64,000 nucleotides of DNA from Streptomyces sp. P9-A2 (GTDB taxonomy: Bacteria > Actinomycetota > Actinomycetes > Streptomycetales > Streptomycetaceae). A program made the translations under genes and the position numbers. How positions within the stretch are numbered: position 1 is the first letter of the stretch; the number at the start of each line of letters is the position of its first letter. Shown in pieces: positions 43,529 through 58,494 of the stretch. The stretch is taken from the NCBI RefSeq assembly GCF_036634175.1, contig NZ_JAZIFX010000001.1, forward strand, positions 1,798,001 to 1,862,000, read 5' to 3'. The notes under the pieces were generated by a model. That model saw nothing but the letters and a program-made list of their open reading frames with translations, did not search any database and was not told the origin of the DNA.

Positions 43529-44992
43529 TCACACCATCAGTGAGCGGTCGGTCGGGCGGACCGGTGCGGGCAGGTCGCTCGCGCCGGTGAGCCGGCGGTC
43601 GCAGCCGCGTGCCGCGGAGCGGCCCTCGGCGATCGCCCACACGATGAGCGACTGGCCGCGCCCGGCGTCTCCGGCGACGAAGACGCCGGGCACGCTGGTG
43701 TGGAAGTCGGCGTCGCGGGCGATGTTACCGCGTGCGTCGAGTTCCAGGCCGAACTGCTCGACCAGTCCGTTGTCGCGGTCGGTACCGGTGAAGCCCATGG
43801 CGAGGGTGACCAGCTGGGCCGGGATCCTGCGCTCGGTGCCGGGCTTCTGGGTGAGCCTGCCGTCGGTGAACTCGACCTCGGTCAGGTGCAGCCACTGCAC
43901 GGTGCCGTCCTCGTCGCCCTCGAAGTGGGTGGTGGAGACGGAGTAGACCCGCTCGCCGCCCTCCTCGTGCGCGGAGGTGACCTTGTAGAGCATGGGGAAG
44001 GTCGGCCACGGCTGGGAGAGGGTGTCCCGGTCCTCGTTCGGGCGGGGCATGATCTCGAGCTGGGTGACGGAGGCGGCGCCCTGCCGGTGGGCGGTGCCCA
44101 CGCAGTCGGCACCGGTGTCGCCGCCGCCGATCACGACGACGTGCTTGCCCTCGGCCGAGATGGGCGGGGCGACGTAGTCGCCCTCCTGCACCTTGTTGGC
44201 CAGTGGCAGGTACTCCATGGCCTGGTGGATGCCCTTGAGGTCGCGGCCGGGCACGGGCAGGTCGCGCGCGGTCGTCGCGCCGACGGCGAGGACGACGGCG
44301 TCGTAGCGCTTGCGCAGTGCGGTGGCCGGCATGTCCCGGCCGATCTCGATGCCGGTGCGGAACTTGGTGCCCTCCGCGCGCATCTGCTCGATACGGCGGT
44401 TGATGTGCCGCTTCTCCATCTTGAACTCGGGGATGCCGTAGCGCAGGAGGCCGCCGATGCGGTCGGCCCGTTCGTAGACGGCGACCGTGTGGCCGGCGCG
44501 GGTCAGCTGCTGGGCGGCGGCGAGGCCGGCCGGGCCGGAGCCGACGACGGCGACGGTCTTGCCGGACAGGCGTTCGGGGATCTGCGGGGCGACGTCGCCG
44601 GTCGCCCACGCCTTGTCGATGATGGAGACCTCGACGTTCTTGATGGTGACCGGCGGCTGGTTGATGCCGAGCACGCATGCCGACTCGCACGGTGCGGGGC
44701 ACAGGCGGCCGGTGAACTCCGGGAAGTTGTTGGTGGCGTGCAGGCGCTCGCTCGCCGCCGACCAGTCCTCGCGGTAGGCGTAGTCGTTCCACTCGGGGAT
44801 GAGGTTGCCCAGCGGGCAGCCGTTGTGGCAGAACGGGATGCCGCAGTCCATGCACCGGCCGGCCTGCTTGCTGATGATCGGCAGCAGCGAGCCGGGGACG
44901 TGGACCTCGTTCCAGTCCTTGACGCGTTCGGTGACCGGGCGGGAGGTGGCGACCTCGCGGCCGTGGTTCAGAAAGCCCTTCGGATCAGCCAT
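43529..44992 (-). CDS. gltD: Glutamate synthase small subunit
   Basis: 487-aa FAD/NADPH subunit. N-terminal cysteine motifs [14 protein letters not shown] and CPAPCESAC bind two [4Fe-4S] clusters. [17 protein letters not shown] binds FAD and [11 protein letters not shown] binds NADPH, and CDRRLTG ends the family core. It passes electrons to GltB. ATG 44992 overlaps the gltB stop by eight bases, so the pair is translationally coupled. Confidence 0.96.
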
Positions 44993-47900
44993 GGGTCGCC
45001 GCCTCCATCATCTTCCGGTGGGTGTCGGGCTCGGAGAGCCCGGCTCGCTCGGCGGCGTCCTTGGCGGCGAGCACTGCCTGGTACGTGCTGGGGGTGATCT
45101 TGCTGAAGCGGGCGGCGCCTCCGTCGGGGCTGTCCCACTCGGCCAGCAGCTTGGCGGCGACGGTGGAGCCCGTCTCCTCCTGGTGCCGGCGCACCACGTC
45201 GTGCAGCCAGGCGCGGTCGGTGTCGTCGAGTTCGTGGACGGCGTCCAGGTGGCCGGGGTTGACGTTGTCCCGGTCGAGGTCGATGACGTAGGCGGTGCCG
45301 CCGGACATGCCGGCCGCGAAGTTGCGGCCGGTCTCGCCGAGGACGACCGCGTGACCGCCGGTCATGTACTCGCAGCCGTGGTCGCCGACGCCCTCGGAGA
45401 CGACCAGCGCGCCGGAGTTGCGGACGCAGAACCGTTCGCCGACCTTGCCGCGCAGGAACATCTCGCCGCCGGTGGCGCCGTAGGCGAGGGTGTTGCCCGC
45501 GATGACGCTGTACTCGGCGAGGTGGTCGGCGCCCCGGTCGGGGCGGACGACGATCCGGCCGCCGGAGAGGCCCTTGCCGACGTAGTCGTTGGCGTCGCCC
45601 TCCAGGCGCAGCGTGATGCCGCGCGGGACGAAGGCGCCGAAGGACTGGCCGGCGGAGCCGGTGAAGGTGATGTCGACGGTGTCGTCGGGCAGGCCCGCGC
45701 CGCCGAACTTCTTGGTCACCTCGTGGCCGAGCATGGTGCCGACCGTGCGGTTGATGTTGCGGATGGCGACCTGGGCGCGTACGGGCTGGGCCTCGGTCGC
45801 GCCGTCGGCGGCGAGTGCGTCGGCGGCGAGCTTGATCAGCTCGTTGTCGAGGGCCTTCGCCAGGCCGTGGTCCTGGGGGACGGTGTGGTGGCGGGCGGCG
45901 CCCTCGGGCAGTTCGGGCACGTGGAAGAGGGGGGCCAGGTCGAGGCCCTGTGCCTTCCAGTGGGTGACCGCGCGGGTGACGTCGAGGGCCTCGGCGTGGC
46001 CGACGGCCTCCTCGATGGAGCGGAAGCCGAGTTCGGCGAGGAGTTCGCGGACCTCTTCGGCGATGAACCGGAAGAAGTTCACGACGTGCTCGGCCTTGCC
46101 GGCGAACCGGTCGCGCAGGACCGGGTTCTGCGTGGCGATGCCGACCGGGCAGGTGTCCAGGTGGCAGACGCGCATCATGACGCAGCCGGAGACGACCAGC
46201 GGGGCGGTGGCGAAGCCGAACTCCTCGGCTCCGAGGAGGGCGGCGATCACCACGTCGCGGCCGGTCTTGAGCTGGCCGTCGGTCTGGACGACGATGCGGT
46301 CGCGCAGGCCGTTGAGCAGCAGGGTCTGCTGGGTCTCGGCGAGGCCGAGCTCCCAGGGTCCGCCGGCGTGCTTGAGCGAGGTCAGCGGGGAGGCGCCGGT
46401 GCCGCCGTCGTGGCCGGAGATGAGTACGACGTCGGCGTGGGCCTTGGAGACGCCCGCGGCGACGGTGCCGACGCCGACCTCGGAGACCAGCTTGACGTGG
46501 ATGCGCGCCTCGGGGTTGGCGTTCTTCAGGTCGTGGATGAGCTGGGCGAGGTCCTCGATGGAGTAGATGTCGTGGTGCGGCGGCGGGGAGATGAGGCCCA
46601 CACCGGGTGTCGAGTGACGCGTCCTGGCGATCCACGGGTAGACCTTGGGGCCGGGCAGCTGGCCGCCCTCGCCGGGCTTGGCGCCCTGGGCCATCTTGAT
46701 CTGGATGTCGTCCGCGTTGACCAGGTATTCGGAGGTCACGCCGAAGCGGCCGGAGGCGACCTGCTTGATGGCGGAGCGGCGGGCCGGGTCGTACAGGCGC
46801 TCCGGGTCCTCACCGCCCTCGCCGGTGTTCGACTTGCCGCCGAGCTGGTTCATGGCGATGGCGAGGGTCTCGTGCGCCTCCTGGGAGATGGAGCCGTACG
46901 ACATGGCGCCGGTGGAGAAGCGCTTGACGATCTCGGAGACCGGCTCGACCTCGTCGAGGGGGACGGGGGCCCGGCCGGAGGTGAGGCCGAAGAGCCCGCG
47001 GAGCGTCATCAGGCGCTCGGACTGCTCGTTGACGCGGCCGGTGTACTGCTTGAAGACGTCGTAGCGGCCGGAGCGCGTGGAGTGCTGGAGGCGGAAGACC
47101 GTCTCGGGGTCGAACAGGTGCGGTTCGCCCTCGCGGCGCCACTGGTACTCGCCGCCGATGTCGAGCGCGCGGTGCGCGGGGGCGATGCCGGTGGCGGGGT
47201 ACGCCTTGGCGTGGCGGGCGGCGACCTCCTTGGCGACGACGTCGAGGCCGACGCCGCCGATCTTGGTGGCGGTGCCGTGGAAGTACTTCTCGACGAAGGC
47301 CGCGTCGAGGCCGACGGCCTCGAAGACCTGGGCGCCTCGGTAGGAGGCGACGGTGGAGATGCCCATCTTGGACATGACCTTCAGGACGCCCTTGCCGAGG
47401 GCGTGGATCAGGTTGCGGATGGCCTTCTCGGACTCGATGCCGGGCAGGAAGGTGCCCGCGCGGACGAGGTCCTCGACGGACTCCATCGCCAGGTAGGGGT
47501 TGACCGCGGCGGCACCGAACCCGATGAGGAGGGCCACGTGGTGGACCTCGCGGACGTCTCCGGCCTCGACGAGGAGGCCCACCTGGGTGCGCTGCTTGGT
47601 GCGGATGAGGTGGTGGTGGACGGCCGAGGTGAGCAGCAGCGACGGGATCGGCGCGTGCTCGGCGTCGGAGTGCCGGTCGGACAGGACGATCAGGCGGGCG
47701 CCGTTGCCGATGGCGGCGTCGGCCTCGGCGCAGATCTCCTCGATGCGGGCGGCGAGGCTGTCGCCGCCGCCGGAGACCCGGTAGAGGCCGGAGAGGGTGG
47801 CGGCCTTGAACCCGGGCAGGTCACCGTCGGCGTTGACGTGGATGAGCTTGGCCAGCTCGTCGTTGTCGATGACGGGGAAGGGCAGGACGACGGTGCGGCA

Positions 47901-49706
47901 GGACGCGGCGTTCGGTTCGAGCAGGTTGCCCTGGGGGCCGAGCGCGCTGCGCAGGGAGGTGACGAGCTCTTCGCGGATCGCGTCCAGCGGCGGGTTGGTG
48001 ACCTGCGCGAACAGCTGGGTGAAGTAGTCGAAGAGGAGCCGGGGGCGTTCCGACAGGGCGGCGATCGGCGAGTCGGTGCCCATGGAGCCGATCGGCTCGG
48101 TGCCGGACTTGGCCATCGGGGCGAGCAGGACGCGCAGTTCCTCCTCGGTGTAGCCGAAGGTCTGCTGGCGGCGGGTGACCGAGGCGTGGGTGTGGACGAT
48201 GTGCTCGCGCTCGGGCAGGTCGGACAGCTCGATCTCGCCGGTTTCCAGCCACTGGGCGTAGGGGTGCTCGGCGGCGAGCTGGGCCTTGATCTCGTCGTCC
48301 TCGATGATGCGGTGTTCGGCGGTGTCGACGAGGAACATGCGGCCGGGCTGCAGGCGTCCCTTGCGGACGACCTTGGCGGGGTCGATGTCGAGGACGCCGA
48401 CCTCGGAGCCGAGGACGACGAGGCCGTCGTCGGTGACCCAGTAGCGGCCGGGGCGCAGGCCGTTGCGGTCGAGTACGGCGCCGACCTGGGTGCCGTCGGT
48501 GAAGGTGACGCAGGCGGGGCCGTCCCAGGGCTCCATCATCGTGGAGTGGTACTGGTAGAAGGCGCGGCGCGCGGGGTCCATCGAGCCGTGGTTCTCCCAC
48601 GCCTCGGGGATCATCATGAGCACCGAGTGCGGCAGGGAGCGCCCGCCGAGGTGCAGCAGTTCGAGGACCTCGTCGAAGGACGCCGAGTCGGAGGCGTCGG
48701 GGGTGCAGACGGGGAAGATCCGCTCGAGGCCGGCGGAGCCGCTGTGCCCACGGTCGGCGGAGCCGCTGTGCCCACGGTCGGCGGAGCCGCTGTGCCCACG
48801 GTCGGCGGAGCCGCTGTGCCCACGGTCGGCGGAGCCGCTGTGCCCACGGTCGGCGGAGCCGAACAGGTCGGAGGCCAGCTGGGACTCGCGGGCGCGCATC
48901 CAGTTGCGGTTGCCCTTGACGGTGTTGATCTCACCGTTGTGGGCGACGAAGCGGTAGGGGTGCGCGAGGGGCCACGACGGGAAGGTGTTCGTGGAGAACC
49001 GGGAGTGCACCAGCGCGAGCGCGGAGCCGAAGCGGCGGTCGGACAGGTCCGGGAAGAAGGGCTCGAGCTGACCGGTGGTGAGCATGCCCTTGTAGACGAT
49101 GGTCCGCGCGGACAGCGACGGGAAGTAGACGCCCGCCTCGCGCTCGGCGCGCTTGCGCAGCACGAAGACCGTGCGGTCGAGGTCGATGCCCTGGGACGTG
49201 TGGTCCGTGACGAAGATCTGGCGGAAGACCGGCATCGTGGAGCGGGCGGTGGCGCCGAGCAGGTCGGGCGCGACGGGCACCGTGCGCCAGCCGAGGACGG
49301 TCAGGCCCTCGGCGGCGGCGATCTCCTCGATGCGGGCGACGGCCTCGTCGGTGGCGTCCACGGGGAGGAAGGCGGTGCCGACGGCGTAGGCGCCGGCCTC
49401 GGGCAGTTCGAATCCGGCCACCTCGCGGAAGAAGGCGTCCGGGACCTGGGAGAGGATGCCCGCGCCGTCACCGGAGTCCGGCTCGGAGCCGGTGGCACCG
49501 CGGTGTTCCAGGTTGCGCAGGACGGTGAGTGCCTGCTCGACCAGGGTGTGAGACGCCTCGCCGGTGAGGGTGGCGACGAAGCCGACGCCGCAGGCGTCGT
49601 GCTCGTCGCGGGGGTCGTACATGCCCTGCGGAGCAGGGCGAGCATCCATGAAGGACCAGTTCTGGCCATGCGCGGGATGCTGGGACGGCTGGCGCGTCAT
49701 ACGCAT
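44985..49706 (-). CDS. gltB: Glutamate synthase large subunit with internal tandem repeat
   Basis: 1573-aa enzyme forming two glutamates from glutamine and 2-oxoglutarate. The glutamine amidotransferase Cys39 (DACGVGFVA) becomes the mature N-terminus after propeptide removal. The FMN/synthase domain includes [18 protein letters not shown] and the 3Fe-4S Cys block [19 protein letters not shown]. The C-terminal beta-helix ([11 protein letters not shown]) is present. An eight-residue unit (GSADRGHS) is repeated five times at about residues 286-325 in a loop that is short in relatives. ATG 49706 has GGAAGAG upstream. Confidence 0.96.
48731..48860. repeat. 24-bp tandem repeat (5.4 copies) inside gltB
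   Basis: Five perfect 24-bp units start at 48731, 48755, 48779, 48803 and 48827, then ten bases of a sixth. 24 bp equals eight codons, so copy-number change keeps the frame. Confidence 0.97.
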
Positions 49707-51003: not shown

Positions 51004-51133
51004 AACACCCAATCTATGCTTCCTCATTCCCTTCCGCCAGCAAGGAAAGGCTGGGCTAACCTGCGGTTTTGTCGATTCCGCCGCTCGCCTGCGGGAGGGC
51101 CCGCGCAGATGTCGACCGGGTGACACCGGGGCC

Positions 51134-51157
51134 TGTGAGGCTGCACCGGACCTCACA
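51134..51157. promoter_or_regulatory. Inverted repeat upstream of the ADP-ribosylglycohydrolase operon
   Basis: TGTGAGG-N10-CCTCACA, 63 nt before the first operon gene. It could be an operator or leader hairpin. Flanked by two ACACCGGGG direct repeats. Confidence 0.5.
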
Positions 51158-51219
51158 CCGGGGACAGTTCCGCAAAGGGCTTCGCGCCTCTCGGGGCGCC
51201 CCTGAGAGGAGAGCCGCGT

Positions 51220-52245
51220 ATGGCATCGACCGCCTGCATCCCCTCTGCCCCGGCGCCCGGGGGCTCCCTCGGGCTCCGCGAACGGGCACGCGGCGCGCTG
51301 CTCGGCCTGGCCGTCGGCGACGCTCTGGGCGCCCCGGCCGAGAATTTGAAACCCTCCGAGATCCGCGCCCGGTGGGGCCGCATCACGGGATACGTGGCGG
51401 AGCACCCCGCGGGCACGGACGACACCGAGTACGCGATCCTGTCCGGCCTGCTGCTGGCCCGGCACGGATCGGCGCTCACCCCGGCGCAGGTCGGAGCGGC
51501 CTGGCACGAATGGATCGCGGACCGCGCCGAGGGGCGGTTCCGGGGCGCCGGATTCAGTGAGCGCGGCACCCTGGAGAACCTCCGCCGGGGGCTGGCCGCC
51601 CCCGTCTCCGCCCAGCACCGTCACGCCTGGAGCGACGGGCTGGCGATGCGGGCGGCGCCGCACGGCGTCTTCGCGGCCGGCCGCCCCGCCGAGGCCGCCC
51701 GGCTGGCCGCGATCGACGGCTCGGTCAGTCACGACGGCGAGGGCATCTACGGAGGCCAGGCGGTCGCGGCAGGCGTGGCGGCGGCGATGGCCGGGGCGCC
51801 GGTGGTCACCGTCGTGGCCACCGCGCTGGCCCTGGTGCCGGAGGACTCCTGGACCGCCCGTTCCCTGCGCCGCGCCGTCACCGTGGCCCACCGGGGCGAA
51901 CGCGCGATCCGTTCCGCGGTAGTGATCGGCGGCTACCCCTGGACCGACCTGGCCCCCGAGGCCGTCGCCCTCGCCTTCGGCGCGTACGCGGCGGCGGACG
52001 GGGACTTCGAACAGACGGTGCTGACGGCCGTCAACATGGGCCGCGACGCGGACACCACCGCGGCGGTGGCGGGCGCCCTCGCGGGCGCGACCCTGGGCGC
52101 CGCCGCGATCCCGCAGGCCTGGGCGGCCGCGATCGGACCGGCCCGCGGCAGCTGCCTCCCCGCGATGGCGGGCCATCACGTCCTGGACATCGCGGACCTG
52201 CTCACTCCGGCACCGGCCGACAACCCCGCGGAGGCCCCGTCATGA
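51220..52245 (+). CDS. ADP-ribosylglycohydrolase family protein (ARH copy 1)
   Basis: 341-aa DraG/ARH-fold protein. GLAVGDALGAPAEN starts the fold, GTDDTE (66-70) gives metal ligands Asp67-Asp68-Thr69, and NMGRDADTTAAVAGALAG has Asp276, Asp278 and Thr279. All metal ligands for a binuclear Mg site are present, so it is probably active in cleaving an N- or O-linked ADP-ribose or a related glycoside. ATG 51220 follows GAGAGGAGAG. First of six tightly packed genes. It overlaps the next by ATGA. Confidence 0.9.
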   Translation: MASTACIPSAPAPGGSLGLRERARGALLGLAVGDALGAPAENLKPSEIRARWGRITGYVAEHPAGTDDTEYAILSGLLLARHGSALTPAQVGAAWHEWIADRAEGRFRGAGFSERGTLENLRRGLAAPVSAQHRHAWSDGLAMRAAPHGVFAAGRPAEAARLAAIDGSVSHDGEGIYGGQAVAAGVAAAMAGAPVVTVVATALALVPEDSWTARSLRRAVTVAHRGERAIRSAVVIGGYPWTDLAPEAVALAFGAYAAADGDFEQTVLTAVNMGRDADTTAAVAGALAGATLGAAAIPQAWAAAIGPARGSCLPAMAGHHVLDIADLLTPAPADNPAEAPS

Positions 52246-53717
52246 CCCTCTCCCCACCGGCGACGGCACCCCCATCCACACCACGGGACCGACCGCCGGA
52301 ACATCCCCCGGCGTCCCCCGCCGAAAACCCCCCGCCGAGACCGCCCCCGCCCGGCCACGGGCCCCGTCCGCCCGACACGACCGCGCCCCGCCCTCCTGAA
52401 GCCGCTCCCGGGGCCGCCGACGGTGCGACAGCCCCACCGGGGCCACCCGCACCCGCACCCGCACCCGCACCCGCCCATGGAACCCGCCCGGGTGGTGCGG
52501 AGCGGAAACGCCGGGCCGAAGGCGAAGCCGAGGCTTCCGGCGACCGCCGGTCCGGGTCCGGCGACCACCGGCCCGCGACAGTACCCCTCACCCCGCCGCC
52601 GCAGGCACCCCGTATCGAGGGCCTCCTCCTCGGCCTCGCCGCCGGAGACGCCGCCGGCTGGCCCGCGGCACGCCACCGCGCCGCCCGGATGCCCGAGTGG
52701 ACCCGGCGCCTCACCCGGGAGCTGGACACCTTCGCCGAGCAGAACGCGACCACCACCCTCCCCGTGCCCATCGCCCTCAACCAGCCCCCGGGCCCCCTGC
52801 GCCTGGGTCCCTCCGACGACGCCGAGTGGGCGGTGTTCGCCGCCGAGGCGGTCCTGCGGGCCGGCGACGACGGCGCGCTCGGCGACCTGAGCCGCGAACG
52901 CCGCACCCGGGCCGCCATCGACCTCACCTGGAACGCCATGGCCGGTGAGGTCGCCGCGGCCGCGGAACGCGCGCCCGAGATCGAGTCGGCCGTCCTGCCC
53001 CTGCGCGCCCGCATCTCCGTACGGGCCGGACTCGGCAACCTCGCCACCGGCCTGCGTCCGCCCGCCACCGGCCACGACAACCCGCACTACTTCGACGACG
53101 CGGCCTGCGTACGGGCCTGTGTCCTGGCCGTGGCCCACCCCGGCGACCCCGAGGGCGCCGCCGCGCTCGCCGAGTTCGACGCCCGCTACACCCAGGACGG
53201 CGACGGGGTGCACGGCGCCCGCGCGATGGCCGCCGCCATCGCCCTCGCGCTGGCCGGCGCGGACGTCGGGGCATGCGTGGCGGCCGCGGTGGCCGAGTTG
53301 CCCGAGGAGACGGAGATCGGCCGCAACGCCCGGCACGCGCTGCGGCTCGCCGCGGACATCGACGGCGCCTTCGCCCTCGTACCGCTCCTGGAGCACCAGA
53401 TCGTCGACCACGTCTACAGCTACGGCATCGCCGCTGCCGAGACCGTCCCCGTGGCTCTCGCGCTGGCCACCGCCTCGCACGGCCGGATGGTGGAGGCGGT
53501 GCCCGCGGCGGCCTGTCTCTCCCGGGTCGCGGACTCCGCCCCCGCCCTCGTCGGCGCGCTGACCGGCGCGCTCGGCGGCGGCGCGGCGATCCCCGAGTCC
53601 TGGCGGGAGAGCTGCCGCATCCTCTCCGGCTGCACGCTTCCCCGGCTCACCGGCACCGACCTGGTGGAACTCGCCGGGCTCCTGGAAGCCGCACAACCGC
53701 CTCCCCCCGGAGGATGA
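52242..53717 (+). CDS. ADP-ribosylglycohydrolase family protein with degenerate metal site (ARH copy 2)
   Basis: 491-aa protein. The first 125 residues are a Pro-rich disordered leader. The ARH fold follows (GLLLGLAAGDAAGWPAAR). The DDT motif reads DDAE (192-195) and the C-terminal D-x-D-T motif is lost, reading RVADSAPALVG at about 429-439. Catalysis by the standard mechanism is therefore doubtful. It may be a binding or regulatory partner of its neighbours. ATG 52242 overlaps copy 1. Confidence 0.85.
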   Translation: MTLSPPATAPPSTPRDRPPEHPPASPAENPPPRPPPPGHGPRPPDTTAPRPPEAAPGAADGATAPPGPPAPAPAPAPAHGTRPGGAERKRRAEGEAEASGDRRSGSGDHRPATVPLTPPPQAPRIEGLLLGLAAGDAAGWPAARHRAARMPEWTRRLTRELDTFAEQNATTTLPVPIALNQPPGPLRLGPSDDAEWAVFAAEAVLRAGDDGALGDLSRERRTRAAIDLTWNAMAGEVAAAAERAPEIESAVLPLRARISVRAGLGNLATGLRPPATGHDNPHYFDDAACVRACVLAVAHPGDPEGAAALAEFDARYTQDGDGVHGARAMAAAIALALAGADVGACVAAAVAELPEETEIGRNARHALRLAADIDGAFALVPLLEHQIVDHVYSYGIAAAETVPVALALATASHGRMVEAVPAAACLSRVADSAPALVGALTGALGGGAAIPESWRESCRILSGCTLPRLTGTDLVELAGLLEAAQPPPPGG

Positions 53718-53724
53718 TTCGGGC

Positions 53725-54906
53725 ATGACGCTCAAAGAGCACGAAAAGCGGGTTCGGGGTGCCTCCCTGGACGAACGGTTCACCGGCGCGCTGGTGGGAG
53801 CCGCCGTCGGCGACGCGCTCGGCGGCCCCGTCGAGGGGTACTCCCCCGAGCAGATCGTCGAGCGCCACGGCGGCCGTGTCCACGGCGTCGTCGGCCCCTG
53901 GAACGGTGACGCCTGGCGCACCGCCCGTCCGATCGCCCCGTACCACAAGGGCGACGGCCACGTCACCGACGACACCCTCATGACGCACGCCCTGGTCCGG
54001 GTGTACGCGCGGGTCCGGGGCCATCTGGACGCCCACGCCGTCGCCGACCACCTGGTCCCGGACCTGATGACGCACCCGCGCTGGATCCCGGAGCTGGAGG
54101 CGGAGGCGCTCCTGCTGCAGCGGGTCTTCCTCGCGGAGAAGTGGCTGGTGGCCCGGATCCACTACGGCCACGTCGATCCGCGCGAGGCGGGCGTCGGCAA
54201 CATCGTCAACTGTGGTGCCGCGATGTACATGGCCCCGGTCGGCCTGGTCAACGCGGCCCACCCGGCGGGCGCCTACGCCGAGGCGCTGGACGTCGCGGGA
54301 GCCCACCAGTCGTCGTACGGCCGGGAGGCGGCCGGTGTTCTCGCCGCGGCGGTGGCGGCGGCGTGCGCGCCGGGAGCGACACCGGACTCGGTCGTCACCG
54401 CCTGTCTGTCCCTGGCGAAGGACGGCACGCGGACGGCGATCGAGCGGGTCTGCGAAGTGGCGTCCCGCCATACGGAGTTCGAGTCCGCGTTGCGCCCGCT
54501 GCGGGAGGCGGTGGCCCCGTACGACAGCGTGGGTCCCGACTACCGCGCTCCGTCGCTGGGTGCCCGCCGTCCCTCAAGGCTGCACGCGATCGAGGAACTC
54601 CCGGTCGCGCTGGGCATGGTGGTGGTGGCCGGCGGCGACTTCCGGCACGCGGTGCTGGGCGCGGTGAACTACGGCAGGGACTGCGACTCCATCGCCACGA
54701 TGGCCGGTGCCGTGGCGGGTGCCCTCGGTTCGCCGGTTCCCGAGGACTGGGCGAAGACCGTGGCGGAGGCCAGCCGTCTCGACCTCCTGGAACCCGCGGC
54801 CACGCTGACGGAGGTGGCCCGCGAGGTCTTCGCACGCGATGTGTCCCGACGCCGCTCGCACGAAAGGGCGTTCGCCGAGCTGGGGGGCCCGGAATGCTCC
54901 GACTGA
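53725..54906 (+). CDS. ADP-ribosylglycohydrolase family protein (ARH copy 3)
   Basis: 393-aa protein with intact motifs: GALVGAAVGDALGGPVEGYS, TDDTLMTH (81-88) and NYGRDCDSIATMAGAVAG (Asp319, Asp321). An insert between these (about 90-200) includes HYGHVDPREAGVGNIVNCGA, also seen in ARH proteins acting on small-molecule ADP-ribosides. ATG 53725 has CCGGAGG upstream. The 3' end overlaps copy 4 by 13 bp. Probably an active hydrolase. Confidence 0.9.
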   Translation: MTLKEHEKRVRGASLDERFTGALVGAAVGDALGGPVEGYSPEQIVERHGGRVHGVVGPWNGDAWRTARPIAPYHKGDGHVTDDTLMTHALVRVYARVRGHLDAHAVADHLVPDLMTHPRWIPELEAEALLLQRVFLAEKWLVARIHYGHVDPREAGVGNIVNCGAAMYMAPVGLVNAAHPAGAYAEALDVAGAHQSSYGREAAGVLAAAVAAACAPGATPDSVVTACLSLAKDGTRTAIERVCEVASRHTEFESALRPLREAVAPYDSVGPDYRAPSLGARRPSRLHAIEELPVALGMVVVAGGDFRHAVLGAVNYGRDCDSIATMAGAVAGALGSPVPEDWAKTVAEASRLDLLEPAATLTEVAREVFARDVSRRRSHERAFAELGGPECSD

Positions 54907-56417
54907 CCTGGGTCCAGCCGGAGGACCTGATCGGGCACGAGCTGCGCCAGGCCGCCCAGGACGGCCGGTCGGCCACGGCCGTCGCCGCCGTCGCCGCCCG
55001 GTGGCGCGCGGCGGGCGGCCCCGAGGCCCCGCCCCGCGCGGGTGCCTCCCCGCGACCGGCGTCCCGCTACCTCCGGCTGCTGGCCGGGGACCTCCTGGAC
55101 GAACTCGCCGACCTGCCCAGCGGCCTCGCGGACGATGAACCGACGGACCTCGGCGCCATCAAGTCCCTCTGCCCCGAATGGCCTTCACCTGTCGACACAG
55201 CTCCCCCGGCCTCCGACCACCCTGCCGCGGACCACCCTGACGCGGACCACCGCCGGGCCGGCCGTCTTGACGCGGACCGCAGCTGGACCGACCGTCCTGA
55301 CACCGACCACCGCCGGAGCAGCCGTCCCGACACCGACCGCCTCGGAACCGAGCCTCTGGAAGCCGCCTGGCTCGGTCGTGCCGTCGGCTGCCTGCTCGGC
55401 AAGCCGGTGGAGAAGCTCCCCCTCGACGGCATCCGCCGACTCGCCCGGGCCACCGGGAACTGGCCTCTGAACTACTACTTCACCGCCCTCGGAGTCCCCG
55501 GGGAACTGGCCGCGCGGTACCCCTGGAACCGTCGCTCGGCGGCCACCTCGCTCGCCGAGAACATCGACGGGATGCCCGAGGACGACGACCTCGACTACCC
55601 GCTTCTCAACCTGCTGCTGCTCCAGCGGTACGGCAAGGGCTTCACCACCACGGACGTGGCCCGGCTCTGGCTGGACGAACTCCCGGCGGGCCGTTCCTTC
55701 ACCGCCGAACGCGTCGCCTACCGCAACCTCCTCGACGGCGTGGAGCCTCCGCGCACCGCCCGCCACCGCAACCCGTTCCGCGAGTGGATCGGCGCCCTGA
55801 TCCGTGCCGACGTGCACGGCTGGACCAACCCCGGCGATCCGGCGGGCGCCGCCGAGCAGGCCCACCGCGACGCCACCCTCACGCACACCGCGGGCGGTGT
55901 CCACGCCGCGATGTTCGGCGCGGCCGTCATCGCCACCGCCGCAGGCACAGGCGCAGGCGCAGGCGGCGACCGCCCGGACGTGCACGCCTGCCTGCGCGCC
56001 GGCCTCGCCGTCGTACCGCCCCGCTCCCGGCTCGCCCGCGCCGTGCGCGAGGCCGTCCGACTGGCACACGAGCACCATGACTTCACCACCGTCGTCGACC
56101 GGCTCCACGCCCTGCACGCCGGTGCCCACTGGGTGCACGCCGTCCCCAACACCGCCCTGATCGCCGCCGCCATCACCCACGCGGACGGCGACTTCACCGG
56201 CGCCGTCTGCCGTGCCGTGTCCGGCGGCTGGGACACGGACTCGAACGGCGCGACGGTGGGCGGTGTCACCGCCCTGCTCGCCGGTTCTCCCGCCGCCCTC
56301 CCCGAGCGTTGGACGGCCCCGCTGAAGAACCGGCTGGCCACCTCCGTCGGCGACTTCAACGGCGTCGGCTTCGACACCCTGGCCCGTCTGACCCGTCTGG
56401 AGGCCTCCCGCCCATGA
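54894..56417 (+). CDS. ADP-ribosylglycohydrolase family protein, longer type (ARH copy 4)
   Basis: 507-aa protein. Residues 1-95 are helical, 95-150 a His/Asp/Arg repeat region (ADHRRAGRLDADRSWTDR), then the ARH domain: WLGRAVGCLLGKPVEKLP, EDDDLDYPLLNLLLLQRYG (Asp230-232) and GGWDTDSNGATVGG (Asp447, Asp449). Motifs are complete. ATG 54894 lies inside copy 3. The linker repeats are probably flexible. It overlaps the CoA transferase gene by ATGA. Confidence 0.88.
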   Translation: MLRLTWVQPEDLIGHELRQAAQDGRSATAVAAVAARWRAAGGPEAPPRAGASPRPASRYLRLLAGDLLDELADLPSGLADDEPTDLGAIKSLCPEWPSPVDTAPPASDHPAADHPDADHRRAGRLDADRSWTDRPDTDHRRSSRPDTDRLGTEPLEAAWLGRAVGCLLGKPVEKLPLDGIRRLARATGNWPLNYYFTALGVPGELAARYPWNRRSAATSLAENIDGMPEDDDLDYPLLNLLLLQRYGKGFTTTDVARLWLDELPAGRSFTAERVAYRNLLDGVEPPRTARHRNPFREWIGALIRADVHGWTNPGDPAGAAEQAHRDATLTHTAGGVHAAMFGAAVIATAAGTGAGAGGDRPDVHACLRAGLAVVPPRSRLARAVREAVRLAHEHHDFTTVVDRLHALHAGAHWVHAVPNTALIAAAITHADGDFTGAVCRAVSGGWDTDSNGATVGGVTALLAGSPAALPERWTAPLKNRLATSVGDFNGVGFDTLARLTRLEASRP

Positions 56418-57655
56418 CCCGGCCCGTCACACCCACCGCCCCCTCCCCCGGCCCCTCCGCTCCCCCGCCCCCACCCCCTCTGACCGGCCTGCGGGTCCTG
56501 GACCTCGCCACCCTCTTCGCCGGGCCCCTCGCCGCGACGCTGCTCGGCGACTTCGGCGCGGAGGTCGTCAAGATCGAGCATCCGAGGAAGCCCGACCCCT
56601 CCCGCGGCCACGGCCCGTCGAAGAACGGCGTGGGGCTGTGGTGGAAGATGCTCGGCCGCAACAAACGGACCATCACCCTCGACCTGTCCACCCGCGGCGG
56701 CCGGGCGACCCTGCTGCGCCTCGCCAGGACCGCCGACGTGATCATCGAGAACTTCCGGCCCGGCACCCTGGAGAAGTGGGATCTGGGCTGGTCCGAACTG
56801 TCCGCCGCCAACCCCCGTCTCGTCCTGGCCCGGGTCACCGGCTTCGGCCAGTTCGGCCCGTACGCGCACCGGCCCGGCTTCGGCACACTCGCCGAGGCCA
56901 TGAGCGGTTTCGCCGCCATCACCGGTGAGCCCGGCTCGCCCCCGACGCTGCCGCCGTTCGGCCTGGCCGACTCCATCGCGGGCCTGACCACGGCCTACGC
57001 GGTGCTGACCGCGCTCGCCGGGCGGGAGAGCACCGGCGAGGGCCAGGTCGTCGACATGGCCCTCATCGAACCGATCCTCACCGCGCTCGGACCCCAGCCG
57101 ACCTGGTACGACCAGCTCGGCCACGTCCAGCCGCGCACCGGCAACCGCTCCCAGAACAACGCCCCGCGCGGCACCTACCTCACCGCCGACGGCACCTGGG
57201 TCGCCGTCTCCACCTCGGCCCAGTCGGTCGCCGAGCGGGTGATGCGGCTGGTGGGGAGGCCTGAGCTGATCGACGAACCATGGTTCGCCACCGGCGCCGG
57301 CCGCGCGGGGCACGCGGACGTCCTGGACGAGGCGGTGGGCGGCTGGATCGCCTGCCGCACCCGCGGAGACGTGCTCGCCGCCTTCGAGAAGGCCGAGGCC
57401 GCGGTGGCGCCCGTCCAGGACGTACGGGACGTGATGACCGACCCGCAGTACCGGGCCCTGAACACGATCACCACGGTCGACGACCCCGAGCTGGGCCCGC
57501 TGCGCATGCAGAACGTTCTCTTCCGCCTCTCGCACACCCCCGGCGCGATCCGCTGGGCGGGCCGCCCGCACGGCGCCGACACCCAGGAGGTGCTGACCGA
57601 ACTGGGCCTCACCCCGGCCGAGCTGACGGCCCTGCGCGCGGAAGGCGCGCTGTGA
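56414..57655 (+). CDS. Class III CoA transferase (CaiB/BaiF family)
   Basis: 413-aa enzyme with GLRVLDLATLFAGPLAATLLGDFGAEVVKIE at the N-terminus, ADVIIENFRPGTLEKWDLGW with the conserved block, GFGQFGPYAHRPGFGTLAEA (dimer threading region) and family-typical C-terminus. The catalytic Asp is in FGLADSIAGLTTAYAVL. It moves CoA between carboxylic acids. A Pro-rich head (about 25 aa) precedes the fold. It overlaps both neighbours (ATGA and GTGA). Confidence 0.93.
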   Translation: MTRPVTPTAPSPGPSAPPPPPPLTGLRVLDLATLFAGPLAATLLGDFGAEVVKIEHPRKPDPSRGHGPSKNGVGLWWKMLGRNKRTITLDLSTRGGRATLLRLARTADVIIENFRPGTLEKWDLGWSELSAANPRLVLARVTGFGQFGPYAHRPGFGTLAEAMSGFAAITGEPGSPPTLPPFGLADSIAGLTTAYAVLTALAGRESTGEGQVVDMALIEPILTALGPQPTWYDQLGHVQPRTGNRSQNNAPRGTYLTADGTWVAVSTSAQSVAERVMRLVGRPELIDEPWFATGAGRAGHADVLDEAVGGWIACRTRGDVLAAFEKAEAAVAPVQDVRDVMTDPQYRALNTITTVDDPELGPLRMQNVLFRLSHTPGAIRWAGRPHGADTQEVLTELGLTPAELTALRAEGAL

Positions 57656-58494
57656 CGGTGGCCTCCCCGCTGACCTGGCTGTACGCACCGGGCGACCGGC
57701 CGTGGGTGGTGGCGAAGGCGCTCGTCTCCGGGGCCGACGTGGTGGTGATCGACCTGGAGGACTCCGTCGCCCCCGACCGCAAGGCGTACGCCCGGGCCGC
57801 CTGCGCCGAGCTGTTGTGCGACCCGCAGCCGGTCCCGGTCCACGTCCGCGTCAATGCCCTGACCGGTCCCTGGGGCGAGGCCGACCTCTTTGCCGTCGCC
57901 CCGGCCGGGGGCCTGGTGGGTCTGGCCGGTCTGCGGCTGCCCAAGGTGTCCTCGCCCGCCGACGTCGTCCGGGTCGCGCGGCGGGCCGTGTCCGCAGCCG
58001 GCGGCGCGCTCGGTCTGTACGCGCTGCTGGAGACGGCCCTCGGTATCGAGCGGGCGCACGACGTGGCCACCGCCCACCCGGCCCTGCGCGGTATCTCGAT
58101 CGGTGAGGAGGACCTGCGGACCGACCTGGGCGTACGCGAGGACGCGGGCCTCGACTGGTCCCGCTCCCGCGTGGTCGTCGCCGCGCGGGCGGCGGGTCTG
58201 GCCCCGCCCGCCCAGTCCGTCCACCCGGACATCCGTGACCTGGACGGTCTCCGCGCCTCCTGCGCCCGTGGCCGTGCCCTGGGGTTCCTGGGCCGCGCCG
58301 CCATCCATCCGCGTCAGCTGCCGGTCATCGAGCGCGCCTATCTGCCCACCCAGGAGGAGATCGAGCGGGCGGAGACGGTCGTCAAGGCGGCGGCCGGCGA
58401 GCAGGGCGCCCAGGCACTTCCCGACGGCCGCTTCGTCGACGCGGCGGTGGTGACGGCCGCCCGGCGGGTCCTGTCCCTGGCCCACCGCATCTGA
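57652..58494 (+). CDS. CitE/HpcH-type acyl-CoA lyase
   Basis: 280-aa TIM-barrel lyase. WLYAPGDRPWVVAKAL, VVIDLEDSVAPDRK (metal Asp/Glu), HVRVNAL, LPKVSSPADV, LYALLETALGIERA and ISIGEEDLRTDLG form the substrate/Mg site of malyl-CoA, citramalyl-CoA or citryl lyases. GTG 57652 overlaps the CoA transferase stop. With that enzyme it could activate and cleave a hydroxy-dicarboxylic acid. The identity of the acid is unknown. Confidence 0.92.
   Translation: MTVASPLTWLYAPGDRPWVVAKALVSGADVVVIDLEDSVAPDRKAYARAACAELLCDPQPVPVHVRVNALTGPWGEADLFAVAPAGGLVGLAGLRLPKVSSPADVVRVARRAVSAAGGALGLYALLETALGIERAHDVATAHPALRGISIGEEDLRTDLGVREDAGLDWSRSRVVVAARAAGLAPPAQSVHPDIRDLDGLRASCARGRALGFLGRAAIHPRQLPVIERAYLPTQEEIERAETVVKAAAGEQGAQALPDGRFVDAAVVTAARRVLSLAHRI

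Follow-up and report, generated by a model that had tools for sequence, protein, structure and literature searches.

A Streptomyces operon joining four ADP-ribosylhydrolase-fold proteins to a CoA-transferase and a CitE-like lyase: a candidate catabolic pathway for a ribose-organic acid conjugate

A stretch of 64,000 nucleotides from Streptomyces sp. P9-A2 (contig NZ_JAZIFX010000001.1), here called the window, carries six plus-strand genes at positions 51220-58494 that encode four proteins of the ADP-ribosylglycohydrolase (ARH) family PF03747 (ARH1 to ARH4), a class III coenzyme A (CoA)-transferase (CaiB), and a CitE-like lyase, in that order. From the gene content of related loci, we propose that this operon would encode those steps of a catabolic pathway that take place inside the cell, the substrate being a small conjugate of ribose and an organic acid. 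We assign this reading a probability of roughly 0.55. In the ancestral system, as the gene content of relatives suggests, a LacI-controlled ABC importer of the CUT1 type would take the compound up; this step is absent from the window. ARH-fold hydrolases would cleave the ribofuranosyl bond, with ARH3 and ARH4 as the predicted core and ARH1 and ARH2 as accessory proteins, probably a heteromer with a catalytically degenerate ARH2. Ribose would be phosphorylated by the ribokinase of the operon or, in the clade of the window, by another genomic ribokinase. Following the chemistry of their families, the class III CoA-transferase would load CoA onto the freed acid, and the CitE-like lyase would cut a 3-hydroxyacyl-CoA into an acyl-CoA and a keto acid. 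Sets of ARH, ribokinase, and importer genes were known already, whereas the coupling of ARH with a CoA-transferase/lyase pair is undescribed in the literature found.

Operon content in Streptomyces and in other lineages

The initial annotation of the window had described a six-gene operon of four ARH paralogs, a CoA-transferase, and a CitE-like lyase, and the coordinates, junctions, and Pfam assignments confirmed this description. ARH1 (51220-52245; 202.1 bits, E 1.9e-59), ARH2 (52242-53717; 121.2 bits, E 8.6e-35), ARH3 (53725-54906; 166 bits, E 1.9e-48), and ARH4 (54894-56417; 154.2 bits, E 8e-45) all belong to PF03747, with 121 to 202 bits against a curated cut-off of 26.2. They are followed by CaiB (56414-57655; PF02515, 404.6 bits, E 5.5e-121) and by the CitE-like CoA-ester C-C lyase, which starts with GTG (57652-58494; PF03328, 117.7 bits, E 6e-34) and shows an additional, weaker match to PF15617; the remaining Pfam content of the six genes consists of PF03747, PF02515, and PF03328. 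The junctions measure, in order, -4, +7, -13, -4, and -4 nucleotides. In comparison with four relatives, dN/dS values of 0.13 to 0.40 indicate purifying selection on all six genes. Eight PF03747 genes are present in the whole genome (8.39 Mb, two contigs), half of which sit in the operon.

The gene order was scanned in the best 80 of 445 relatives, all of them Streptomyces. ARH3, ARH4, CaiB, and CitE occur in this order in all 80 loci; ARH2 is present in 78 of them and ARH1 in 70. In the 10 loci without ARH1, the stored sequence ends at a distance of no more than 188 bases from ARH2 or ARH3. The named species with the closest ARH4 relatives include Streptomyces hirsutus, S. chlorus, S. prasinopilosus, and S. 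prasinus (85-87% identity). At the junction of ARH4 and CaiB, an ATGA overlap in the window (56414-56417, plus strand), 29 of the 80 loci carry an inserted ribokinase gene, and a ribokinase was also found in the genomes G023, G107, G128, G182, and G193. The family residues of ribokinases are conserved in the relatives' copies, as are those of CaiB and CitE, and the best of 23 models for a relative's ribokinase was TIGR02152, with 298.4 bits slightly below the cut-off of 299.65. The operon of the window lacks a ribokinase; its genome holds other ribokinase-like genes, none of them orthologous (best match, 45% identity). In one Streptomyces operon at the trp locus (L152, genome G590), the ARH3-ARH4 region appears shortened, the ARH3 match of one search covering residues 14 to 150 only and the ARH4 fragment comprising 91 residues.

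For a broader view, 32 ARH3 loci were tabulated, comprising 9 copies at the Streptomyces trp locus and 23 loci outside the genus, of which 17 came from the 33 non-genus genomes with ARH3 in the class sample described below, 5 from another search, and 1 from a plasmid record. ARH3 is present in all 32, ARH4 in 31, CaiB in 28, CitE in 27, and a ribokinase in 22. Matches to LacI, two permeases, and a substrate-binding protein (SBP) occur in 23 of the 23 non-genus loci (weakest in L150, with 25-39% identity) and in 0 of the 9 Streptomyces trp-locus operons. These genes encode a sugar importer of the CUT1 (SBP_bac_1) type, and the usual order is LacI-permease-permease-SBP-ARH1-ARH2-ARH3-ARH4-ribokinase-CaiB-CitE, from which L148, L149, and L150 deviate. 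Examples are Nonomuraea gerenzanensis (L131; CaiB and CitE are encoded together at another place, L132), Jiangella alkaliphila (L151, identical protein), and two loci taken as those of Phytoactinopolyspora halotolerans (L154) and of a Candidatus Nanopelagicaceae bacterium (L150). Six of the 32 loci (L144, L145, L146, L149, L151, and L154) additionally contain, before CaiB, a gene for a protein of approximately 640 residues with a C-terminal FGE-sulfatase domain; its N-terminal half appears TIM-barrel-like by eye, and it has 1974 homologs, many of them listed in Micromonospora.

Thus, a ribokinase and, outside the genus, a sugar importer are found with the ARH genes in the operons of relatives and not in that of the window. 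Elsewhere in its genome, no close SBP ortholog was found among 14 SBP-like matches (27% identity for the best-scoring, 34% at maximum). Since the non-genus loci carry LacI, permeases, and SBP, and the Streptomyces trp-locus copies none of these, the most fitting view of the Streptomyces operon is that of a reduced version from which import and regulation would have disappeared, together with the kinase in the clade of the window. The initial annotation had suggested the removal of ADP-ribose or of a ribosyl group from a small molecule; the ribosyl alternative is supported by the ribokinase and the LacI/CUT1 transporter genes of the relatives, and the ADP-ribose alternative is not supported, as detailed in the following section.

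Co-occurrence of the two chemistries was assessed in a class sample of 394 genomes from 137 genera, with thresholds of E up to 1e-40 for ARH3 and up to 1e-110 for CaiB; these genomes share ancestry, and the figures are not independent trials. ARH3 was found in 62 genomes and 15 genera, including 29 of the 40 same-genus genomes, and CaiB in 99 genomes. All 62 ARH3 genomes also carry CaiB, in 58 of them within 6.4 kb. The subsequent CoA activation and cleavage of an acid, also part of the initial annotation, is supported in outline as a predicted sequel to deribosylation by the gene content of relatives.

The four hydrolases and the question of ADP-ribose

The metal-binding sites of the known ADP-ribosylhydrolases DraG and ARH3 are formed by two Asp-rich motifs. 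In alignments of 18 (ARH1), 18 (ARH2), 21 (ARH3), and 20 (ARH4) sequences, both motifs are intact in ARH1 (TDDT/GRDADT), with which the DraG structure 2woe aligns across both, and in ARH3 (TDDT/GRDxDS; GRDCDS in the window). ARH4 shows altered motifs of the EDDD/WDTDS type, with GC replacing GD in the first block, and features a conserved N-terminal domain of approximately 100 residues followed by a variable linker. ARH2, which has a Pro-rich N-terminal extension, is degenerate (SDD/xxxADS), its second metal motif having lost the initial Asp in the aligned orthologs; despite this degeneracy it is under purifying selection (dN/dS 0.17-0.24 against four relatives). A succession of four hydrolytic reactions, one way to take the stepwise removal put forward as possible in the initial annotation, is doubtful in view of this missing Asp. 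ARH1 and ARH2 are both present in 29 of the 32 tabulated loci and both absent in the other 3, and they are the only near sisters among the four paralogs (support 92/81); in agreement with this co-occurrence and tree position, they would probably assemble into a heteromer that pairs an active with an inactive protein. A recent quadruplication was considered as the origin of ARH1 to ARH4 and rejected, as ARH1, ARH2, and ARH4 form separate supported clades and ARH3 groups with its rhizobial kin in another. Among the hydrolases of the system, ARH3 has the widest distribution.

The ARH4 clade (100/100) contains rhizobial, Deinococcus, Mycolicibacterium, and glycerate kinase-linked Streptomyces proteins. 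Its members in Deinococcus, Mycolicibacterium, and rhizobia adjoin ribokinases or sugar transporters, but a link to ribokinase does not hold for the entire clade, because Streptomyces paralogs stand beside glycerate kinase, SIR2, and NUDIX genes. Specifically, three Streptomyces loci (L042, L043, and L044) carry a second ARH4-like gene divergent from a glycerate kinase-family gene, with SIR2 adjoining in L042 and L043, NUDIX in L043 and L044, and a macrodomain gene at a distance of 6 kb in L043; this neighbourhood is possibly an ADP-ribose-linked set. In a halophilic archaeon, a Halostella pelagica plasmid (L134) holds an ARH4-like gene together with two nucleoside hydrolase genes (PF01156) and an ABC importer within 10 kb.

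ARH1 and ARH3 have their fold and metal motifs in common with the ADP-ribosylhydrolases DraG and ARH1-3. In a first alternative, the four proteins would remove ADP-ribose from proteins, nucleic acids, or antibiotics within the cell, and CaiB and CitE would be co-transcribed with them for an unrelated reason. Membership of all four in PF03747 favors this alternative, as do the position of SIR2 and NUDIX genes beside the sister clade of ARH4 and the lack of an importer next to all nine Streptomyces trp-locus operons. It also agrees with the literature on S. coelicolor, in which SCO2028-2031 are among eight uncharacterized DraG/ARH homologues in one account (PMC9411070) and SCO2028-2030 among seven in another (PMC5087735). 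We take SCO2028-2031 to be ARH1 to ARH4 from their numbering and the nearby trp locus (SCO2038; PMC5036795) and not from sequence comparison; the locus-number match inside PMC5036795 was the name of a primer. On the other hand, ARH1 and ARH3 are far below the equivalog cut-offs of DraG (79.4 and 47.3 bits, respectively, against 337) and of Tri1 (45.4 and 48.9 bits against 490), and the context of their relatives is one of sugar uptake and CoA chemistry, with ribokinase, LacI, and sugar importer genes, a CaiB in every ARH3 genome, and a different CoA pair coupled in another phylum. Moreover, SCO2028 and SCO2030, which correspond by number to ARH1 and ARH3, were reported to be inactive in purified form on U-alpha-ADPr, the one substrate concerned (PMC13036486). 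Taken together, we regard a role in reversing ADP-ribosylation as unlikely. The same negative assay speaks against ADP-ribose as the leaving group, and neither an ADP-ribosyltransferase nor a Nudix protein or macrodomain was found among the six proteins, no separate search having been made around the relatives.

ARG-centered predicted anti-phage systems, some of them also actinobacterial, share ARH-domain genes and come without a partner transferase (PMC9503650). Their partners, i.e., Nudix and WYL regulators, phosphatases, chaperones, and restriction endonucleases, were not found by Pfam among the six genes of the window and were not searched around all relatives. A defense system was rejected, as PADLOC gave no match to the six proteins and no phage record contained ARH3 at E 1e-5. 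The terms ribokinase, CoA transferase, and citrate lyase had no match inside PMC9503650, PMC5087735, and PMC9411070, and literature searches, whose coverage left out most subscription journals, returned no published description of this operon.

The CoA-transferase/lyase pair, the acid, and competing readings

In class III CoA-transferases, the Asp of the 'GLAD' motif is catalytic. This residue is conserved in CaiB among 17 sequences and, together with PF02515, places CaiB in that class; the best model, succinate-glutarate CoA-transferase, gave 230.2 bits against a cut-off of 750. CitE/HpcH-family lyases rely on active-site Arg, Glu, and Asp residues, all of which are conserved in the alignments of CitE and, with PF03328, assign it to the superfamily. 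Its best NCBIfam match was RipC_Ccl, with 157.9 bits far below the equivalog cut-off of 375; two relatives' CitE proteins scored 188.2 and 129.8 bits with the same model. Modules of a class III CoA-transferase and a CitE-family lyase are known for malyl-CoA and citramalyl-CoA in Chloroflexus, and the itaconate Ict/Ccl (RipC) module follows the same logic. The operon differs from these modules in that ARH proteins and not a hydratase precede the pair, and in that its scores are below all equivalog cut-offs.

To place the pair in other contexts, a further 20 CaiB loci, separate from those tabulated, were examined, 18 of them from genomes without an ARH3 match; part of the labels came from motif patterns, and some neighbors were run against Pfam. 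CaiB lies near a PF04199 cyclase, MmgE/PrpD, or amidohydrolase gene in L162, L167, L169, and L176 (confirmed by Pfam). Such neighbors were judged by eye in L161, L163, L173, L174, and L177, and some of the nine loci also contain CitE. A Liv-type transporter gene is present in L162 and a DctM-type transporter gene in 2 of the 20 actinomycete loci (L172 and L178). The cyclase, MmgE/PrpD, and amidohydrolase contexts suggest a distinct pathway, which perhaps handles a cyclic amide or imide and leads into the same CoA chemistry. In the MmgE/PrpD contexts a hydratase could supply the 3-hydroxy group needed by the lyase, and in the ARH contexts ribosyl removal could unmask such a hydroxyl.

An approximately unbiased (AU) test with 12 ARH-context and 20 other CaiB proteins from the fetched loci rejected a single clade of the ARH-context proteins within actinomycetes (p 0.0047). 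When two rows of the Nanopelagicaceae family were removed, a single clade was not rejected (p 0.50); these two CaiB proteins are sister to a CaiB of the same family that is encoded beside cyclase and MmgE/PrpD genes (support 90/77).

A further line of evidence comes from plasmids of Ensifer, Sinorhizobium, Rhizobium, Agrobacterium, Phyllobacterium, Nitratireductor, and Pseudochrobactrum, which carry ARH3 orthologs (43-50% identity) that group with the actinomycete ARH3 proteins at 100/100. Thirteen of these rhizobial loci were examined, out of 20 alphaproteobacterial records. The order is LacI-permease-permease-SBP-ARH3-ARH (700 residues)-UgpC, followed in Ensifer sp. PDNC004 and Sinorhizobium sp. 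B11 by genes annotated as 'CoA transferase' and 'CoA ester lyase' and, after the Agrobacterium ARH operon, by one annotated as 'ribokinase' instead; overall, the 13 loci include CaiB in 7 (one broken), CitE in 6, and a ribokinase in 1. Where intact, the rhizobial CaiB and CitE proteins are 43-44% and 30-32% identical to those of the window, compared to 59-72% for actinomycete CaiB proteins encoded outside ARH operons, and the rhizobial CaiB proteins are set apart on a branch of length 1.97. Owing to this low identity and long branch, the coupling in rhizobia looks independent, although losses or gene transfer could mimic this pattern. As the ARH-context CaiB proteins of actinomycetes do not form one clade either, CaiB would have joined ARH operons more than once, i.e., the same chemistries would have been joined repeatedly. 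In Rhizobium sp. RCAM05350 (L190), the ARH operon appears to be in pieces, with LacI and CaiB split or partial and ARH3 annotated partly; the operon may be dispensable in this strain.

With respect to the acid, 5 relatives of the rhizobial CaiB proteins were viewed among 38 plasmid records. Three of them (69-74% identity) lie in operons with an ABC importer, a CoA ester lyase, a hydroxyacid dehydrogenase, and RraA; the fourth (57%) follows a tripartite tricarboxylate transporter; and the fifth (56%) adjoins none of these genes, a tricarballylate dehydrogenase gene being located 4.5 kb further. Based on the hydroxyacid dehydrogenase/RraA and tricarboxylate transporter contexts, and on the DctM-type transporter genes in 2 of the 20 actinomycete CaiB loci, our best guess, itself rather doubtful, is a hydroxy di- or tricarboxylate of the malate, citramalate, or citrate type whose hydroxyl would be unmasked by deribosylation. 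Going one step further, we tentatively suggest that soils, the rhizosphere, and freshwater might contain a widely available, so far overlooked metabolite, namely a ribofuranoside (probably alpha) of such a hydroxy acid, with its own import and degradation pathway, which would have arisen more than once, probably three times, by the joining of ARH-fold ribosidases to CoA-transferase/lyase pairs. If so, these lineages would use the ADP-ribosylhydrolase fold as a family of glycosidases that serve the catabolism of small molecules. Four of the eight ARH/DraG homologues of S. coelicolor may be metabolic ribosidases, and the ADP-ribosylation repertoire of Streptomyces would then be read differently. 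The repeated joining of ARH, CoA-transferase, and lyase across phyla would point to an undescribed natural compound that could be found via the binding protein of a relative.

The contexts of CaiB and ARH4 also bear on a second alternative, in which the operon scavenges a true nucleoside, an NAD-derived riboside, or a damaged nucleoside, and the acid arises from the base (e.g., by ring opening) rather than being a ribose-linked hydroxy acid. The amidohydrolase, PF04199 cyclase, and MmgE/PrpD neighbors of the CaiB proteins outside ARH operons would be able to open a ring, and the ARH4-like gene of Halostella lies among nucleoside hydrolase genes. Two described systems point in the same direction. 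The Staphylococcus triad SERP2216-2218 shares ARH, ribokinase, and importer with the relatives of the operon but has a permease of the cytosine/purine/uracil family, one ARH, and no CoA genes (PMC3637587). E. coli yegTUV, which encodes a putative nucleoside symporter, an ADP-ribosylglycohydrolase, and a sugar kinase and has the repressor YegW/GgaR, shares ARH, sugar kinase, and transporter; it differs by a single ARH, a nucleoside-type symporter, the absence of a CoA-transferase/lyase pair, and a link to glycogen accumulation (PMC10819704). The importer of the relatives, however, is of the CUT1 sugar type, and no nucleosidase, deaminase, or amidohydrolase label was found in the LacI-to-CitE stretches or the annotated rhizobial operons, in which not all unlabeled frames were run against Pfam. 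Nucleoside scavenging is likewise improbable in our judgment.

A third alternative assigns to the operon an endogenous metabolite or repair product, such as a stray ribosylated acid, so that no importer would be needed and the imported version would be the use made of the system by relatives. It would account for the trp-locus operons, none of the nine keeping LacI, permeases, or SBP while the enzymes stay under purifying selection. Against it, many Streptomyces retain the ribokinase, and 11 of the 40 same-genus genomes lack an ARH3 match (in one of them, G653, the contig is broken inside ARH4), which would be odd for housekeeping repair. We consider this alternative quite improbable.

Several points weigh against the catabolic pathway for a ribose-organic acid conjugate that we prefer. 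Its support consists of gene context and sequence comparison, activity, substrate, and product all being predicted, and the unmasking of a hydroxyl by deribosylation is an argument from chemical reasoning. Transporter, LacI, and ribokinase are absent from the window, so uptake in Streptomyces is unexplained. The CitE scores are well below the RipC and CitE cut-offs. Four of the 62 ARH3 genomes carry CaiB elsewhere, CaiB and ribokinase are both missing from the surroundings of 5 of the 13 rhizobial loci, and the conflict in the CaiB tree could reflect gene transfer without functional meaning. The ARH4 clade also holds Streptomyces paralogs outside the operon in a context of ADP-ribose metabolism; the ARH4-like paralog beside SIR2 and NUDIX, with a macrodomain 6 kb away, runs contrary to the rejection of ADP-ribose, and that of Halostella fits nucleosides better. 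Finally, 37 of the 99 CaiB genomes have no ARH3 match (G653 among them), and consequently the CaiB-CitE pair is not dedicated to ribosides. The initial annotation had named the common occurrence of the CoA pair without ARH genes as evidence against a joint pathway; CaiB does occur in this way, yet every ARH3 genome has CaiB.

Upstream region and flanking genes

An inverted repeat in front of the operon had been pointed out in the initial annotation. Four inverted-repeat pairs were detected, two of which lie entirely 5' of ARH1. The pair TGTGAGG-N10-CCTCACA (51134-51157) occurs in 1 of 76 upstream regions, that of the window itself, and the pair CCTCTCGGGG/CCCTGAGAGG directly 5' of the ARH1 start (51187-51209) has loose matches in 6 of 76 regions, one of which is that of the window. 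The repeats thus exist, but neither is conserved, and an operator at these sites was rejected for this reason. The conserved element of the region is CAGATGTCGACCGGGTGA (51106-51123, plus strand), which is found exactly in 40 of the 76 upstream regions, its core ATGTCGACC being present in 59. A regulon search with this 18-mer, allowing up to two mismatches, returned a single site in the genome.

Further upstream, a conserved GCCAGCAAGGAAAGGCTGGGCTAACCTGC is located at 51036-51064, 5' of a divergent VIT1-family gene, and GGCTKSGCTAACCTGC is present in 39 of the 76 upstream regions; GCCAGCAAGGAAAGGCTGGGCTAACCTGC resembles an iron box of the IdeR/DmdR type. No RNA element reached the gathering score of Rfam between 50900 and 58700. 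The operon is flanked by genes on the minus strand. Those on one side are the VIT1-family gene and gltB, and those on the opposite side are lgt, trpA, and trpB; the names gltB, lgt, and trp stand for sequences recognized by eye, and the same neighbors are kept in relatives. The gltB-like gene (44985-49706, minus strand) contains a perfect tandem repeat of 24 bp in 5.5 copies at 48731-48861, which encodes (GSADRGHS)n in the large subunit of glutamate synthase.

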